Assembly (NCBI GenBank): GCA_012515075.1
Contig: JAAYZC010000026.1
Span: 1 to 32,697, forward strand
Reading direction: 5' to 3'
Source of the DNA: Thermoplasmatales archaeon
GTDB taxonomy: Archaea; Thermoplasmatota; Thermoplasmata; Methanomassiliicoccales; Methanomethylophilaceae
Length of the DNA: 32,697 bases
In this document: positions 13,840 through 19,815 of the stretch, in pieces
Layout of the letters: the number at the start of each line of letters is the position of its first letter
Numbering within the stretch: the stretch's first letter is position 1
The notes under the pieces: generated by a model
Seen by the model: the letters and a program-made list of their open reading frames with translations, nothing else
What the model was told of the DNA's origin: nothing
Databases searched by the model: none
Program-made: the position numbers and the translations under genes

Positions 13840-13881
13840 TATTAAATACGTGCAGACCTGCGCCTTCGTCAACGATAAATC
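13840..13881. promoter_or_regulatory. Divergent promoters of the surface protein and xseA
   Basis: TATTTAATA (13840-13848, minus) is 28 bases before the ATG at 13816. GATAAATC (13874-13881, plus) is about 26 bases before the xseA ATG at 13904. Both fit leaderless transcription and set both start codons. Confidence 0.5.
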
Positions 13882-13903
13882 GGACGACGCCCATTGCCCG
13901 CTG

Positions 13904-15244
13904 ATGAACGAGACCCTGACCGTCACTCAGCTCAACACCCGGGCCCGCTCCCTCCTGGTGTCCTCGCCGGGCCTGAACGATGTATGGGTGCTGGGAGAGA
14001 TATCGAACTTCAAGAGGTACGGTTCGGGGCATTCCTACTTCACGCTGAAGGATTCCGGCAGCGAGATACGCTGCGCCATGTTCAGGCAGGCGCTCTCCCG
14101 CATAGATTTCGAGCCCGCGGACAGTATGAAGGTGACGGCCTTCGGACACATCGACATATATGTGGAGCGGGGTTCCTACCAGTTCGTGGTGGAGACCATG
14201 AAGCGCTCCGGTGTCGGGGAGCTCTACGCCGCATACGAGGATCTGAAGAGGAGGCTCGAGGCGGAGGGGCTCTTCGATCCCGCCAGGAAGAGGAGGCTCC
14301 CCGTGTACCCTCGGGTGATCGGGGTGGTGACCTCCGAGACGGGCGCCGTGATACACGACATAATCACGACCACCGGAAGGAGGTTCCCCGCCGACATCCT
14401 ACTATGCCCCGCCCAGGTACAGGGGGAGGGCGCCGCAGAGTCTGTGGCGGCGGGTATCGCGGTTCTCAACAGGGCCGGCGTCGACGTCATAATCGTGGGA
14501 CGCGGCGGCGGGTCGATAGAGGACCTCTGGGCCTTCAACGAGGAGAAGGTGGCCAGAGCCATAGCCGCGTCCGCCGCCCCCGTGATATCCGCAGTGGGGC
14601 ACGAGACCGACTTCACCATAGCCGACCTGGTGGCCGACTTCAGGGCCCCCACCCCCACGGGGGCGGCCGAGATCGCGCTGCGGGACCGGAAGGAGGTCGC
14701 GAAGCAGATCGATTCGCTGTCGCTGATGCTGGACCGGGCGCTGATGTCGGCGGTCGGGACCATGAGGAGCCGCTTCGGGATGCTGGATTCCAAACTGTCG
14801 CCCAGGAGAGCGGGGGACCTCGTCCGGACGCTCTCGCAGGAGCTCGGGGCCCTCCGTGGGAGGGCCGATGCCGCCCTGATGCGGAAGACCGACAGGATGG
14901 GGCGCGGATTCTACGTGCTGGATGCGAAGCTGGTCCCCAGAAGGGCCAGGGACGCCGTTATGCAGCACCAGATGAAGGTGGCCGACCTCTCGGATTCCAT
15001 GGCGCAGGCGGTGTCCAGGATGTCGGAAGGCCGGCGCAGGGACCTCGGTTTCCTCTCGGAGAGGCTGGAGGCTCTGGACCACCGCCGCGTCCTGGGCAGG
15101 GGGTACAGCTACGTGAGGGACCCCGGGGGGAGGGTGCTTTCCTCGGTGTCCCAGCTGGCGCCCGGATCCGGAGTGGAGATAGTGATGAGGGACGGGACGG
15201 CCCGGGCCGCCGTCGAGAGCGCAAGGAGGTATTCAGATGGATGA
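13904..15244 (+). CDS. xseA: Exodeoxyribonuclease VII large subunit
   Basis: A 446-aa protein matching XseA in order and length. The N-terminal OB-fold (about residues 1-100) has VLGEISNFKRYGSGHSYFTLKD and CAMFRQA. The catalytic core follows, with YPRVIGVVTSETGAVIHDI, the glycine-rich IIVGRGGGSIEDLWAFNEEKVARAI and the metal-site region SAVGHETDFTIADLVADFRAPTPTGAAE. A coiled-coil C-terminal arm contains two similar repeats (LDSKLSPRRAGD and LDAKLVPRRARD). ExoVII degrades single-stranded DNA from both ends. It is common in bacteria and patchy in archaea. Start chosen by the TATA-like box 26 bases upstream. The stop overlaps xseB by 8 bases. Confidence 0.95.
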   Translation: MNETLTVTQLNTRARSLLVSSPGLNDVWVLGEISNFKRYGSGHSYFTLKDSGSEIRCAMFRQALSRIDFEPADSMKVTAFGHIDIYVERGSYQFVVETMKRSGVGELYAAYEDLKRRLEAEGLFDPARKRRLPVYPRVIGVVTSETGAVIHDIITTTGRRFPADILLCPAQVQGEGAAESVAAGIAVLNRAGVDVIIVGRGGGSIEDLWAFNEEKVARAIAASAAPVISAVGHETDFTIADLVADFRAPTPTGAAEIALRDRKEVAKQIDSLSLMLDRALMSAVGTMRSRFGMLDSKLSPRRAGDLVRTLSQELGALRGRADAALMRKTDRMGRGFYVLDAKLVPRRARDAVMQHQMKVADLSDSMAQAVSRMSEGRRRDLGFLSERLEALDHRRVLGRGYSYVRDPGGRVLSSVSQLAPGSGVEIVMRDGTARAAVESARRYSDG

Positions 15245-15473
15245 GGAAGTGGATAAGATGACGTTCGAGGAGAGCCTGAAAGGGCTCGAGGAGATGGTGA
15301 GGAAGCTGGAGTCCGGGGAGCTGGACCTGGACAGCAGCCTGCAGGTGTACGAGAGGGCCATAGCCCTCAGGGACCACTGCAGGAGGATACTGGACGAGAG
15401 CGAGCGCCGTGTGCAGAAGATAATGGAGACCTCGGAAGGGACGGAGAGGAAGGACCTGCCGGTCTCAAAATAA
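15237..15473 (+). CDS. xseB: Exodeoxyribonuclease VII small subunit
   Basis: A 78-aa helical protein with the XseB signature TFEESLKGLEEMVRKLESGELDLDSSLQVYERA and a second helix with ILDESERRVQKI. Small subunits coat the coiled-coil arm of XseA and are needed for activity. An AGGAGGT ribosome-binding site lies inside the end of xseA, and the two frames overlap by 8 bases, so translation is probably coupled. The 3' end overlaps the convergent DUF4435 gene by 9 bases. Confidence 0.94.
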   Translation: MDEEVDKMTFEESLKGLEEMVRKLESGELDLDSSLQVYERAIALRDHCRRILDESERRVQKIMETSEGTERKDLPVSK

Positions 15474-16325
15474 CCAGAGGCCCATGCCGTTGGCCTCGCA
15501 CCATTCCCTGGTGCTCCTGTGGAGGCGGGTCTCCGCGAAATCGTCCTTTCCGTAGGCGAGCCTGAGGGACCCGGACAGTTCGCAGCCCCTGAGCCCGCGG
15601 CTGTTGAACGCGCCGAATATGGATCTCAATCCCAGCACCAGGATCTCCACGGTGTCGTGCCCCCTGCACACGTCCCAAGGGTCCCATTCCCTGCCCATCT
15701 CCCTTTTCAGCAGGCGCAGGAGCTCCCTTCTGTTCAGACCCGGGCTGTTCGAACGGAACAGTATCTCGTCCACCAGCCTTTCGGGGTCCGTCCTCAGGTC
15801 CCTCTCGTTCACGAATATCTCCGGGTCCAGGTCCTTGAAGGACAGGCCGAGCTTCTCGTTGCAGGATATGAACATCAGAAGGCCAACAGGGTAGCTGGCG
15901 TTCAGGAGGGCGTCCGTGACGCTTCCGTAGGCCCCCTCGAATCTCTCCAGGGCCTCCCTGTCGGCATACTCCCAGAGGACCTCCTGCAGGGCACCGCTCT
16001 TCATTATCATCATCTCGCAGTCCCTGCAGTCGGTAACGAATATCGGGGGCTGTCTGACCACCCCGTTCATCCTGTCGAGGTCCGAATCGACGATTCCCAG
16101 CGTCCGCCTGTCCTTCCTCTTCTCCATGCTCTCTTTAACCGAATAGCGGACGTTCTCCTTCGAGTGGCCTACGATGAGCCTGGTCCGGTCCACGTCTATG
16201 AACTTCCCGTAGAGGCGCAAGTCCGTTATTCCCTCCACGACCAGAACCGTCCCGTCGAAGGCGGACCTCAGCATCGAGATCTCGTTCGCTATGTCGGAGT
16301 ATGACAGGCATTTACGCACTTTCAA
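15465..16325 (-). CDS. DUF4435 TOPRIM-type nuclease, AriB-like (PARIS)
   Basis: A 286-aa protein with the DUF4435 pattern: VLVVEGITDLRLYGKF with the TOPRIM glutamate at residue 31, a GHSKENV segment, then LGIVDSDLDRM with the DxD pair at residues 80 and 82. A cysteine-containing TDCRDCEMMIM follows where the family has its DxE-type segment. In PARIS, AriB is a TOPRIM nuclease released from the AriA ATPase on infection; E. coli AriB cleaves tRNA-Lys. Here the gene starts within the end of the AAA ATPase gene (14-base overlap), so the two form one operon. DUF4435 plus ATPase pairs are not all proven PARIS, so the label is by architecture. The 3' end overlaps xseB. Confidence 0.8.
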   Translation of the reverse strand: MKVRKCLSYSDIANEISMLRSAFDGTVLVVEGITDLRLYGKFIDVDRTRLIVGHSKENVRYSVKESMEKRKDRRTLGIVDSDLDRMNGVVRQPPIFVTDCRDCEMMIMKSGALQEVLWEYADREALERFEGAYGSVTDALLNASYPVGLLMFISCNEKLGLSFKDLDPEIFVNERDLRTDPERLVDEILFRSNSPGLNRRELLRLLKREMGREWDPWDVCRGHDTVEILVLGLRSIFGAFNSRGLRGCELSGSLRLAYGKDDFAETRLHRSTREWCEANGMGLWLF

Positions 16326-17352
16326 CCCTCAGTTCCCGGGCCTGGTCCCACCTGTCGTGTATAACCTGGGGGGACTGGGTGGCCACGATCATCTGAACAC
16401 CGCGGAGCCTGGATATGTCCGTCAGTATGTCTCCTATCCTGTGCTGCCAGGACACGTGCATGGATATCTCGGGTTCGTCTATTATGGCCAGGGAACCCGG
16501 TGAAGCGTGGAACAGGAGGCAGTAGAACATTATCATCACCTGCTTCTCCCCCGCGGAGAGCCGGCCCAGAGGCAGGGATATGCCGCTGTCCATCCTGACC
16601 TCCATCTTGGCATCCTCTATGAACAGGCTCTTGTTGACCAGGAGCCCGTTGACTATGTCCTTGTACACGACGATGGATTCGGCCAGAGTGTAGTTGCGGT
16701 CGACGTACTCGGAAAGGGAGAATGCCAGCTCGGTGTAGTCCTCCCTGTACTCAGCCACCTCGTATCTGGAGGGCGGGAACCTGTAGCCTGCGGGCATCTC
16801 GGGCTCGAAGCCCGCCTCGTTGAGGAAATCCAGCTTGGCCTTAAGGTTCTTGCACCAGAACACCAGCTCGTCGTCGCCGTACTCCTTCCGCCCCTCCTTG
16901 GGCACGGGCAGGAGCTCGGAGTGGTCCGCGGCGAGCCTTATCCTGTCGGCCAGCTCGGAGGCGTAGGATTCCAGCGCGGGAACGAGCCTGCCGTCCTTCT
17001 TCCTGACAGTCAGCCTCTCGGAGGAGATGTATACGACGTTTAGTATTTCCGCGACCTCGGATGGATCCAGGATCTGCTCGAGCTCCGTCTTCTGCATCTG
17101 GATAGTCAGACCGTCCCTGCCGTTCTCCAAGATGAGGGTTGTGTCGTCGTCGAATCCGATGTCCAGCCTCGAGAAGGGCACCGAAGCGGTCTCCTCCGCG
17201 TCCCCCTTCAGGACGCTGCTCAGGAGTCTCATGAGTGTGCTCTTCCCGTATCCGTTGGGGGAGTGCACGAAGGTTAGGGGCTCGGGTCCGAAGCAGATGT
17301 TGTAATCGAAGGTCTCGAAAAGCCCGTATATCGTCACATTTCTGATCATCAT
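16312..17352 (-). CDS. ABC-type AAA ATPase, AriA-like (PARIS)
   Basis: A 346-aa ATPase starting MMIRNVTIYGLFETFDY. The Walker A motif is SPNGYGKST (residues 31-39), the ABC-like signature is GRLSAGEKQVMI (about 264-275), Walker B is SLAIIDEPEIS (about 287-297), and the end has MIVATQSPQVI. The insert between Walker A and the signature holds the helical region (KNLKAKLDFLNEAGFEPEM...YREDYTELAFSLSEYVDRN). This is the small AAA_15/AAA_21-like ATPase found with DUF4435 partners, as in AriA. In PARIS it forms a multimeric cage that senses phage anti-restriction proteins. The start is supported by a TATA box 26 bases upstream; the frame further upstream is a shadow of the TPR gene. Confidence 0.8.
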   Translation of the reverse strand: MMIRNVTIYGLFETFDYNICFGPEPLTFVHSPNGYGKSTLMRLLSSVLKGDAEETASVPFSRLDIGFDDDTTLILENGRDGLTIQMQKTELEQILDPSEVAEILNVVYISSERLTVRKKDGRLVPALESYASELADRIRLAADHSELLPVPKEGRKEYGDDELVFWCKNLKAKLDFLNEAGFEPEMPAGYRFPPSRYEVAEYREDYTELAFSLSEYVDRNYTLAESIVVYKDIVNGLLVNKSLFIEDAKMEVRMDSGISLPLGRLSAGEKQVMIMFYCLLFHASPGSLAIIDEPEISMHVSWQHRIGDILTDISRLRGVQMIVATQSPQVIHDRWDQARELRVESA

Positions 17353-17448: not shown

Positions 17449-18300
17449 ATGGAAACGGACGATGCCTTCGAAAGAATAAACGCACACATCCGCGAGGGGC
17501 GGTACTCCTCGGTACGCCCGGAGGTCTATCGGATAGCCGAACTCTCGGAGGGCGACCCGTTCACCCTGATCAAATGCGCATCGCTGCTCAAGGTCATAGA
17601 CGAAGAGGAGGGCTGCCAGGATATCCTGGGTCGGGTGGAGGCCGCTCTCCCGGAGGGAGGGGAAGACAGGTTCGCCGCGGCCCAGGCCCTGCGGAGACTG
17701 GGGCGCCCCGGGGACGCCCTGCGGATCCTGCACGGAATGGGAGGGGATGATCCGGTGCTCAGGGAGGAGGCCGCGGCGCTCTCCTCGCTGGGAAGGCACG
17801 ACGAGGCCCTCTCCCGCCTGGAGGCTATCGGGGAAAAGCAGGCCGGGGACCGGACAGCCGAGGTCTCGGCGCTCTCCTCGCTGGGAAGGCACGACGAGGC
17901 CCTATCCCTCGCCGAAGGCATCCCGGAGGCGTCCGGGCCTTCCTACGATTCCATGCTGGCATTATGCAGGGTGCTGACCGTCATGGGCCGCAGCAAGGAC
18001 GCCGTGAGAAGGGCCCGGGCGTACCTCAGGGAGGAGGGCGGAGCCGATGGCAACGCCCTGGCGGCCGCGGTCATGTGGTTCAACGGCAAGACACCCGCGG
18101 CCGCGGGGTTCGCCCGCCGTGCGCTGGAGATCGACCACACCCATCAGGGGGCCGCAGAGACCATGGCCATGTGCCTTATAGAGAAAGGCAGGACGAAGGA
18201 GGCCAAGGTGCTCGCCGGGGCGATCAACCAGCACGATCCGGGCTCCGACGCGGCCATCCGCATACTGGACGCCTGCAGGCAGGCGGCCTCTCTGAGATGA
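17449..18300 (+). CDS. TPR-repeat protein
   Basis: A 283-aa soluble all-helical protein made of tetratricopeptide-like repeats. Units are visible as ALRRLGRPGDALRIL, ALSSLGRHDEALSRL, ALSSLGRHDEALSLA, VLTVMGRSKDAVRRA and MCLIEKGRTKEAKVLA, each about 31-34 residues apart. TPR proteins are protein-protein interaction scaffolds; no partner is indicated except the divergent PARIS-like operon upstream. There is no signal peptide. Two repeats share an exact 37-base DNA match, a sign of recent unit duplication. The last base abuts the stop of the convergent trkH gene. Confidence 0.82.
   Translation: METDDAFERINAHIREGRYSSVRPEVYRIAELSEGDPFTLIKCASLLKVIDEEEGCQDILGRVEAALPEGGEDRFAAAQALRRLGRPGDALRILHGMGGDDPVLREEAAALSSLGRHDEALSRLEAIGEKQAGDRTAEVSALSSLGRHDEALSLAEGIPEASGPSYDSMLALCRVLTVMGRSKDAVRRARAYLREEGGADGNALAAAVMWFNGKTPAAAGFARRALEIDHTHQGAAETMAMCLIEKGRTKEAKVLAGAINQHDPGSDAAIRILDACRQAASLR
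17774..17810 (+). repeat. 37-bp direct repeat, copy 1 (within TPR gene)
   Basis: Identical to 17867-17903. It encodes the TPR core ALSSLGRHDEAL. The copies are 93 bases apart, exactly 31 codons, so the duplication preserves frame and repeat spacing. Confidence 0.9.
17867..17903 (+). repeat. 37-bp direct repeat, copy 2 (within TPR gene)
   Basis: The second exact copy of the repeat at 17774-17810. The sequence between the copies differs, so either selection held the core or gene conversion has homogenised it. Confidence 0.9.
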
Positions 18301-19815
18301 TCAGAACCTCTTGCCGAAGAAGACCTTCCTGAGCCTGGACGCCCGGGTGTTGTGCCCCATTACGTACTCCTTCCAGAAGCCGGGGGTGAGCATCACCAGC
18401 GCGGTGGCTATCTCCAGACGGCCCACCCACATGATGAATCCCATGAACACTTTGGAGACATCGTCCAGTTCGGCGAAGGACCCGTAAGGGCCGTAAGGTC
18501 CCAGAGCGGGACCCACGTTGCATATGGCCGTTATCGCGGAGACGAAGGCGTCCTGAATCCCCATTCCCAAGGCGGCGAGGACGATCCCGGATACCATGAT
18601 GGTGCCCAGGAAAAGCATGAACACTATCACCGCTGAGGAGACGTAATCCTTCTCCACGGTGTCGCCGTCCACCTTCACGTCGTAGATGGCTCTCGGGTGT
18701 ATCAGGGCGTTGAGGCCGTTCAGTATGTACTTGTGCACTATCAGGAGCCTGCCCACCTTGATGCCTCCTGCCGTGGAGCCGGAGGAACCGCCCACGAGCA
18801 TCACGGCCAGGATCACGGCGATGGCCGCGCCGGCCCAGAGGCTGTAGTCCACGGTGGCGAACCCGGTGCTGGTGCCCAGCGAGACCACGGTGAAGAGGAC
18901 GTCCTTGTACTGCTCCAGGCCCCCTGCGCCCAACAGGACGAAGATTATGGCGGAGGCCAACAGGAACCACAGGACCATCATCACGAACTCGGAGCTCCTG
19001 AAGTAGGAGCGGGGGTCCCTCTTGTAGATGGCCTTGTAGTGGAGGTAGAAGTTCGTGCCGCCCAGGAGCATGAAGAGTATGACGATTGACTGGACCAGGC
19101 CGCCGTACCCGGCCAGGCTGTCGTTGGTGCACATGAACCCGCCGGTGGAGACGGTGGAGAACATCATGCAGAGGGACTCGTAGATGTCCACCCCCAGAAC
19201 GACCAGCGTAACCAGGAGCACCACGCTCAGTGCCCCGTATATGATGGCGAAGTGCTTGGCCGCATCGGCCATCCTGGCGGTGAAGTTCCTGCTCCCGGAG
19301 CCCGAGAGCTCGTTGTTGAAGAACGTGCGCCCGCCGAAGCCCAGCATGGGCATCAGGAAGAGGAATATCAGGATGGTGGCTATACCGCCCACCCACTGGG
19401 TCATCGATCTCCACAGCAGCAGGGACCGGGGCCAGGACTCTATATCGCTCATTATGGTGGATCCCGTGGTGGTGAATCCGCTGGCCGATTCGAATATGGC
19501 ATCCGCGGGAGGCATGCCGAACATGATGTAGGGGATGACGCCTATGGCCACGGCCGCAAGCCATGCGCATCCGATCATTATCAGGCCGTCGACGGCCTTC
19601 ATGGGGCCGTCGTGCATGCGGAACAGGGACATCATCAGCAGGGAGGCGCAGAGGCAGAAAGCCATGGGGGCCGCGAAGGGAAGAGGGTCCTCTCCGAGGA
19701 GCACGGCCGCCGAGACTGGTACGGCAAGCGACACGGAGATCCCGAAGACGATTATGCCCACCAGATGCACGGTGGGCCCTTCCCATCTCGCAGAACGGTC
19801 TATCTTGAACCTCAT
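18301..19815 (-). CDS. trkH: Trk-type potassium uptake membrane subunit
   Basis: A 504-aa integral membrane protein with the four pore loops of the TrkH/KtrB family: ASGFTTTGST (about residue 108), FSTVSTGGF (about 222), LGTSTGFATVD (about 315) and AICNVGPALGP (about 430), each with the selectivity-filter glycine between predicted helices. It mediates K+ uptake at the cytoplasmic membrane, gated by TrkA. The trkA gene ends 10 bases upstream on the same strand, so the pair is an operon. Its stop codon directly abuts the stop of the convergent TPR gene. Confidence 0.95.
   Translation of the reverse strand: MRFKIDRSARWEGPTVHLVGIIVFGISVSLAVPVSAAVLLGEDPLPFAAPMAFCLCASLLMMSLFRMHDGPMKAVDGLIMIGCAWLAAVAIGVIPYIMFGMPPADAIFESASGFTTTGSTIMSDIESWPRSLLLWRSMTQWVGGIATILIFLFLMPMLGFGGRTFFNNELSGSGSRNFTARMADAAKHFAIIYGALSVVLLVTLVVLGVDIYESLCMMFSTVSTGGFMCTNDSLAGYGGLVQSIVILFMLLGGTNFYLHYKAIYKRDPRSYFRSSEFVMMVLWFLLASAIIFVLLGAGGLEQYKDVLFTVVSLGTSTGFATVDYSLWAGAAIAVILAVMLVGGSSGSTAGGIKVGRLLIVHKYILNGLNALIHPRAIYDVKVDGDTVEKDYVSSAVIVFMLFLGTIMVSGIVLAALGMGIQDAFVSAITAICNVGPALGPYGPYGSFAELDDVSKVFMGFIMWVGRLEIATALVMLTPGFWKEYVMGHNTRASRLRKVFFGKRF

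Follow-up and report, generated by a model that had tools for sequence, protein, structure and literature searches.

A PARIS-type gene pair with a compact AriA at a shared chromosomal site in Methanomethylophilaceae

The gene pair and its predicted products

The window, that is, the whole 32,697-nucleotide stretch of DNA analysed, came from a Methanomethylophilaceae (Methanomassiliicoccales) assembly of 988,185 bases (78.55% complete). It encoded an ABC-type ATPase and a DUF4435 protein on two overlapping minus-strand genes, situated between xseAB, which we take to encode a bacterial-type exonuclease VII, and a TPR gene followed by trkH (Table 1). Both genes, the three ATPase motifs and the DUF4435 residues E31, D80 and D82 had been named in a preliminary description of this DNA and were confirmed at the positions tabulated. 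As most relatives of the DUF4435 protein begin two codons downstream of TTG 16325, GTG 16319 is the likelier start, in which case the two genes overlap by 8 nt.

Table 1. Positions of the gene pair, its predicted functional residues and the neighbouring genes in the window
Feature	Position	Strand	Remarks
ariA-like gene, compact ABC/AAA_21 ATPase, putative counterpart of the PARIS sensor/antitoxin	16312-17352	-	346 aa; PADLOC, Pfam and AlphaFold2 model
Walker A SPNGYGKST, ATPase residues 31-39 (K37)	17236-17262	-	N33, G36 and K37 in 56/56 family rows
ABC signature LSAGEKQ, ATPase residues 265-271	16540-16560	-	S266, G268 and E269 in 56/56 family rows
Walker B IIDEPEIS, ATPase residues 290-297	16462-16485	-	D292 and E293 in 56/56 family rows
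ariB-like gene, predicted DUF4435 TOPRIM nuclease	15465-16325	-	286 aa from TTG 16325; probable start GTG 16319
AriB predicted catalytic Glu, E31 (numbered from TTG 16325)	16233-16235	-	Invariant in 59/59 family rows
AriB predicted DxD metal-site pair, D80 and D82	16080-16088	-	Each invariant in 59/59 family rows
xseA (context, outside the system)	13850-15244	+	Convergent neighbour of the pair
xseB (context, outside the system)	15237-15473	+	Near the pair in 55/58 loci; within 300 bp in 52
TPR gene (context, outside the system)	17449-18300	+	Divergent; near the pair in 54/58 loci; within 300 bp in 41
trkH (context)	18301-19815	-	Near the pair in 49/58 loci

The ATPase matched Pfam AAA_21 at 56.9 bits (cut-off 27) and AAA_15 at 33.3 bits (cut-off 32.1). 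PADLOC placed AriA at the top (E 4.6e-21) and PtuA second (1.9e-16), and the AriA family model matched all 57 aligned ATPase rows. Many PtuA-type models matched the same 57 rows, so the name cannot rest on the ATPase alone. When the AlphaFold2 model of the protein (mean pLDDT 94.1) was aligned to PDB structures with VIA, the best match was AriA chain 8v46_B (Z 25.1, 331 residues aligned), followed by a retron-Eco7 ATPase (Z 18.3) and an SMC head (Z 18.2), Rad50 and SMC heads coming after AriA. A profile search against solved AriA gave E 8.5e-33, which together with the top Z score makes AriA the nearest solved relative by sequence and fold. Walker A, signature and Walker B were intact in the predicted AriA fold and in 56/56 family rows, across which W335 was likewise invariant.

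The DUF4435 protein scored 46.9 bits against Pfam DUF4435 (cut-off 27), and its only PADLOC match was AriB (E 6.1e-17), a value that, like that for AriA and the Pfam scores, lies far beyond chance. All 60 aligned AriB rows were matched by the AriB family model. Foldseek returned AriB chains 8v46_D and 8ux9_A as the sole PDB matches at E<=0.001 for its AlphaFold2 model (47 sequences, mean pLDDT 95.1). VIA-align gave Z 15.8 to AriB 8ux9_A (252 residues aligned), with AriB chains at 15.8 and 15.3 over 252 to 253 residues; OLD nuclease domains were the next family, with a best Z of 7.9, and RNase M5 was not among the VIA matches listed for this model. The TOPRIM fold, on which the preliminary description had staked its proposal, was thus recovered in the predicted structure. 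Searches against PDB sequences gave best matches of E 0.46 with phmmer and E 0.00089 with the AriB profile, the latter to a spike-derived construct with no single stretch passing; both were taken as chance. The TOPRIM Glu and DxD sat within the predicted AriB fold, and D35, D99, D102, H223, D224 and R255 were also invariant in 59/59 aligned family rows.

These 59 rows stand against 92 family genomes with AriB. Counts of residue conservation (59 AriB and 56 AriA rows) drop the last row, L119 from G109; alignments A1 and A2 exclude loci L190 to L211, including those of G003 and of the orphan AriA of G004, and A2 further excludes L078, L079 and L103, whose ATPase frames run past the usual end. 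The published rule for two-gene PARIS calls for an AAA_15 or AAA_21 ATPase (>=32 or >=27 bits) adjacent to a DUF4435 protein (>=27 bits) (PMC9122126), and the two adjacent genes exceeded these values for AAA_21 (56.9), AAA_15 (33.3) and DUF4435 (46.9). The PADLOC and Pfam matches and the structure models therefore support the AriA-AriB identity first suggested from the motifs.

Position, retention and descent within the family

We compared 58 family loci with about 5 kb of flanking sequence where the contig permitted. The order xseAB-ariB-ariA-TPR-trkH was widely shared in the family: xseB was convergent with the pair wherever it was near, the TPR gene was divergent likewise, and xseB, the pair, the TPR gene and trkH occurred together in 46/58 loci, the misses including contig ends. 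In four genomes (G056, G060, G068 and G069) the pair was not adjoined by xseAB and xseA lay elsewhere in the genome, and in G061 the TPR gene was on the AriA strand. By eye, parts of genera g6, g9 and g12 (L075, L081, L092, L101 and others) had extra open frames between the pair and its neighbours, resembling membrane-protein, methyltransferase and zinc-binding genes; genes thus enter at the edges of the locus, with the pair left in place. Within the order, xseA was seen in 95/102 family genomes and otherwise only in G109 and G136; as G109 is also the sole genome of the order outside the family found with AriAB, xseA and the pair may have been acquired together or be linked in function.

The divergent TPR gene, which had been proposed as an extra component, was found where described, but it had no PADLOC match and persisted in two genomes that lacked the pair (G005 and G006), and was rejected as a third component. 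Two nearly identical segments (ALSSLGRHDEALS) were seen by eye close together at 17766-17905 within this gene.

AriB was present in 92/102 Methanomethylophilaceae genomes, including 42/45 of those of best quality and 13/14 genera. There was a single match in 89 of the 92 genomes, and in G039, G080 and G085 the match was divided between two contigs, which we interpret as a single gene that had been split. A contig scan with the DUF4435 protein (P0002) alone gave no relative. AriA (E<=1e-15) occurred in 95/102 family genomes (147 order genomes searched, 96 positive), and none of the 92 genomes with AriB lacked AriA. As a control, Cas1 was found in 15/102 of the same genomes.

The ten genomes without AriB were G004, G005, G006, G028, G041, G059, G067, G070, G095 and G100. 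The contig stopped within AriA in four of these (G028, G041, G095 and G100) and within the TPR gene in G070. In G059 and G067 xseA, AriA, AriB, the TPR gene and TrkH were all sought and none was found, reflecting either loss of the whole block or an assembly gap. In G005 and G006, assemblies with 79% completeness and 6% contamination, xseB, the TPR gene, trkH and trkA were continuous and the pair was not found. G004 had retained AriA and lost AriB, with roughly 190-210 bp from xseB to ariA, and this one event was the only loss of a single gene between continuous flanks. The orphan AriA of G004 kept its ATPase motifs and had W335 replaced by proline and D333 by asparagine; in this one case, loss of W335 fits a C-terminal motif that would serve AriB. 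Within genus g4 (L192, L190, L210 and L211) we observed a minimal AriA with AriB in G003, AriA only in G004 and neither gene in G005 and G006, which looks like a decay series. The pair is dispensable in at least one genus, and clear losses were seen within one genus only.

This pattern bears on plain toxin-antitoxin addiction, in which the pair would be kept since losing AriA first is lethal, with no selected benefit to the host. Addiction would explain why AriB never occurred without AriA, why AriA alone is tolerated in G004 and why clear losses are confined to one genus, but two genomes lack both genes, and the invariance of both active sites is poorly accounted for, as a disarmed toxin would escape. 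We therefore consider addiction by itself an improbable explanation.

Trees of AriA+AriB and of XseA+TrkH+TrkA were compared for 55 loci having both pair genes and >=2 of XseA, TrkH and TrkA. All eight multi-member genera were monophyletic in both the pair tree and the flank tree; the flank tree contained 30/33 supported pair splits, and the pair tree 32/39 supported flank splits. Two supported pair splits, both within genus g9, conflicted with supported flank splits. Distances in pair and flanks correlated at 0.79 (maximum among 999 permutations, 0.23), and mean tree distances were 1.71 and 1.77, respectively. Linkage between pair and flanks leaves the genus codes as the sole independent yardstick in this test. 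In Methanomethylophilaceae the pair descends vertically and changes about as fast as the housekeeping genes beside it.

A mobile PARIS cassette that had recently entered between xseAB and trk would suit the two-gene layout and the housekeeping genes that bound the pair, and a single insert at this place had been the initial proposal. Other genera of the family have the same site, however, and the GC contents of three 1 kb stretches across the pair (0.633, 0.587 and 0.612) lay inside the window range of 0.579-0.688, with no break in composition. Given presence in 92/102 genomes, synteny and congruent pair and flank trees, recent insertion was rejected, and we give the mobile cassette next to no credence.

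For dN/dS we had 195 within-genus pairs with AriB dS<1.6, of which the lowest 40 were examined. AriB dS was below 0.5 in only five pairs, from genera g9 and g14, and in these dN/dS was 0.014-0.107 for AriB, 0.080-0.180 for AriA and 0.064-0.111 for XseA. Among the other 35, AriB exceeded 0.2 in 32 and reached 0.825, with XseA, TrkH and TrkA also rising; AriB was above the flanks in some pairs, such as G050-G055 (AriB 0.825, TrkH 0.761, TrkA 0.700, XseA 0.475). These 35 were taken as saturated and nothing was drawn from them.

Because pair and neighbours have similar rates of evolution, there is room for a housekeeping or stress role. AriAB might have been recruited in the family's ancestor to process RNA, to serve tRNA quality control or to answer stress by ATP-gated growth arrest, with no antiviral role. 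Near-universal presence at a fixed site, vertical descent at a neighbour-like rate, the low dN/dS of the five least diverged pairs and the patchiness of Cas1 in the same genomes all agree with such a recruited RNase. Set against it are G005 and G006, where neither gene lies between the continuous flanks, and G004, which lacks AriB; moreover, for both proteins the solved relatives with the highest scores are parts of PARIS, Rad50 and SMC heads coming next for the ATPase. On balance we regard this explanation as rather unlikely, though better placed than addiction. The preliminary description had held that a core, syntenic, ordinary housekeeping operon would speak against a defence pair; the locus proved to be core and syntenic, and may, though less probably, be an ordinary housekeeping operon.

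A compact AriA and related systems

The 76 extracted AriA frames (G109 included) spanned 265-478 aa with a median of 346, and the longest were those continuing past the usual end. In alignment A4, for which AriA frames of 330-365 aa had been pre-selected, 43/43 family rows were 342-359 aa. AriA of G003 was shorter still, with intact motifs and a central helical part that was nearly absent. Outside the family, AriA had 440 aa in G109, 443-454 in three Clostridia, 386 in Cellulosilyticum and 461 in an ignavibacterium. The solved E. coli AriA chain has 464 aa compared with 346 here, and the protein is accordingly not a full-length AriA; this is a difference in size, length not being among the published PARIS criteria. 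The missing residues fall between the two ATPase halves, which are separated by 108 residues compared with about 200 in solved AriA.

Elsewhere in the order the pair was found only in G109 (1/45 genomes), using the ATPase protein (P0001) and the Pfam DUF4435 model, which is less sensitive than P0002 and found 60/102 family genomes. In G109 the pair lay on a different contig from xseA. In 400 genomes of the class, sampled from a larger group, the AriB alignment model found 65 genomes, namely 63 of the family, G109 and G212. The next nearest AriB among the loci fetched was from Clostridia, 34-37% identical to the window protein, and AriAB occurred in 9/24 genomes of the clostridial family of G452. 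The clostridial loci (L181-L185, e.g., Cellulosilyticum ruminicola) share the gene order, with genes abutting or overlapping, but differ in AriA length (443-454 aa in L181-L183 and 386-394 in L184, depending on start); in L185 the AriA frame was 253 aa, at a contig end. By eye, several of the five loci had neighbours in common, presumably a GNAT-like, a NUDIX-like, an HD-GYP-like and a phosphorylase-like gene. The clostridial AriAB suggests another chromosomally settled lineage.

Plasmids gave two weak matches, one being an AAA ATPase and DUF4435 pair on a Rouxiella plasmid, in a stretch also carrying IS6 transposase genes, and phages gave no match. A fused AriAB was observed in G032 (L120:3774-5714; PADLOC AriAB E 2e-73); it likewise combines ATPase and DUF4435, but as one polypeptide at another locus, additional to the core pair.

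Nucleases of the OLD family combine ATPase and TOPRIM in a single polypeptide. The pair resembles them in joining an ABC ATPase to a TOPRIM nuclease, with Z 6.7-7.9 to the nuclease part, a far weaker match than to AriB, and differs in being two separate overlapping genes. The Septu and retron PtuA ATPases share the ATPase fold (Z about 17-18), PtuA models ranking second to AriA, but the partner here is a TOPRIM DUF4435 protein rather than the HNH protein PtuB, described as the partner of PtuA in PMC12409363. The labels OLD, Gabija and Septu were set aside, as AriA and AriB match better in PADLOC and by structure. PARIS of E. coli has the same gene pair, near full-length agreement of folds, TOPRIM E..DxD site and ABC ATPase motifs; the differences lie in the length of AriA and in the pair here being archaeal, fixed in the chromosome and inherited vertically throughout a family.

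A predicted RNase switch and its possible roles

In E. coli, an AriA hexamer is described as holding three AriB, which Ocr or other phage proteins release, after which AriB forms dimers and cleaves tRNAs, tRNA-Lys(UUU) among them, between positions 40 and 41 (PMC12409363, PMC11455837). The gene anatomy in Methanomethylophilaceae fits this scheme. We think it probable that the pair is a resident PARIS-type sensor-gated RNase module fixed in the family. By analogy with E. coli PARIS, the AriA ATPase would keep the AriB RNase inactive until some trigger, a viral protein being the likeliest, made AriA let go of it; freed AriB might then cut host tRNA, stopping translation and aborting the infection. 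None of the 92 genomes with AriB was without AriA, and the gene lost in G004 was AriB; both observations fit AriB being the dangerous partner. As AriA here lacks about 100 residues, possibly including the parts that bind the trigger, details of the E. coli mechanism may not apply. Such a compact-AriA module would have become fixed early on at a single site in the Methanomethylophilaceae chromosome and been inherited vertically rather than as a mobile element, with a resident role in immunity or as a toxin-antitoxin locus.

Vertical descent and a neighbour-like rate count against a plain immune reading. An immune module domesticated after fixation of a compact AriAB at the family base is a tentative possibility; the pair would now be a core, vertically inherited translation-arrest switch, acting, equally tentatively, as an innate immune guard or a stress response rather than as a mobile defence cassette. 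Unlike most defence systems the pair was not seen moving. Horizontal transfer is the general view of how defence systems spread, and a survey from 2026, covering 7,747 archaeal genomes, comes to that conclusion (PMC12988326).

The word PARIS does not occur in the main text of that survey or of PMC13356809. A literature search on defence systems as core genes gave nothing useful, and no title on core PARIS in Methanomethylophilaceae was among the matches listed, which is not proof of absence. A PARIS-type pair with a trimmed sensor at one site family-wide would show that a toxic switch of this kind can enter the core genome, and it also gives a handle on what AriA senses when carried by no mobile element, and provides natural mutants to compare, with AriA only or with neither gene. 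Gut methanogens belong to the family, and a growth-arrest switch built into them would matter in practice. Stable PARIS has a precedent in Neisseria meningitidis, for which PMC9090908 describes PARIS as one of four defence families and a defence content that tracks phylogeny.
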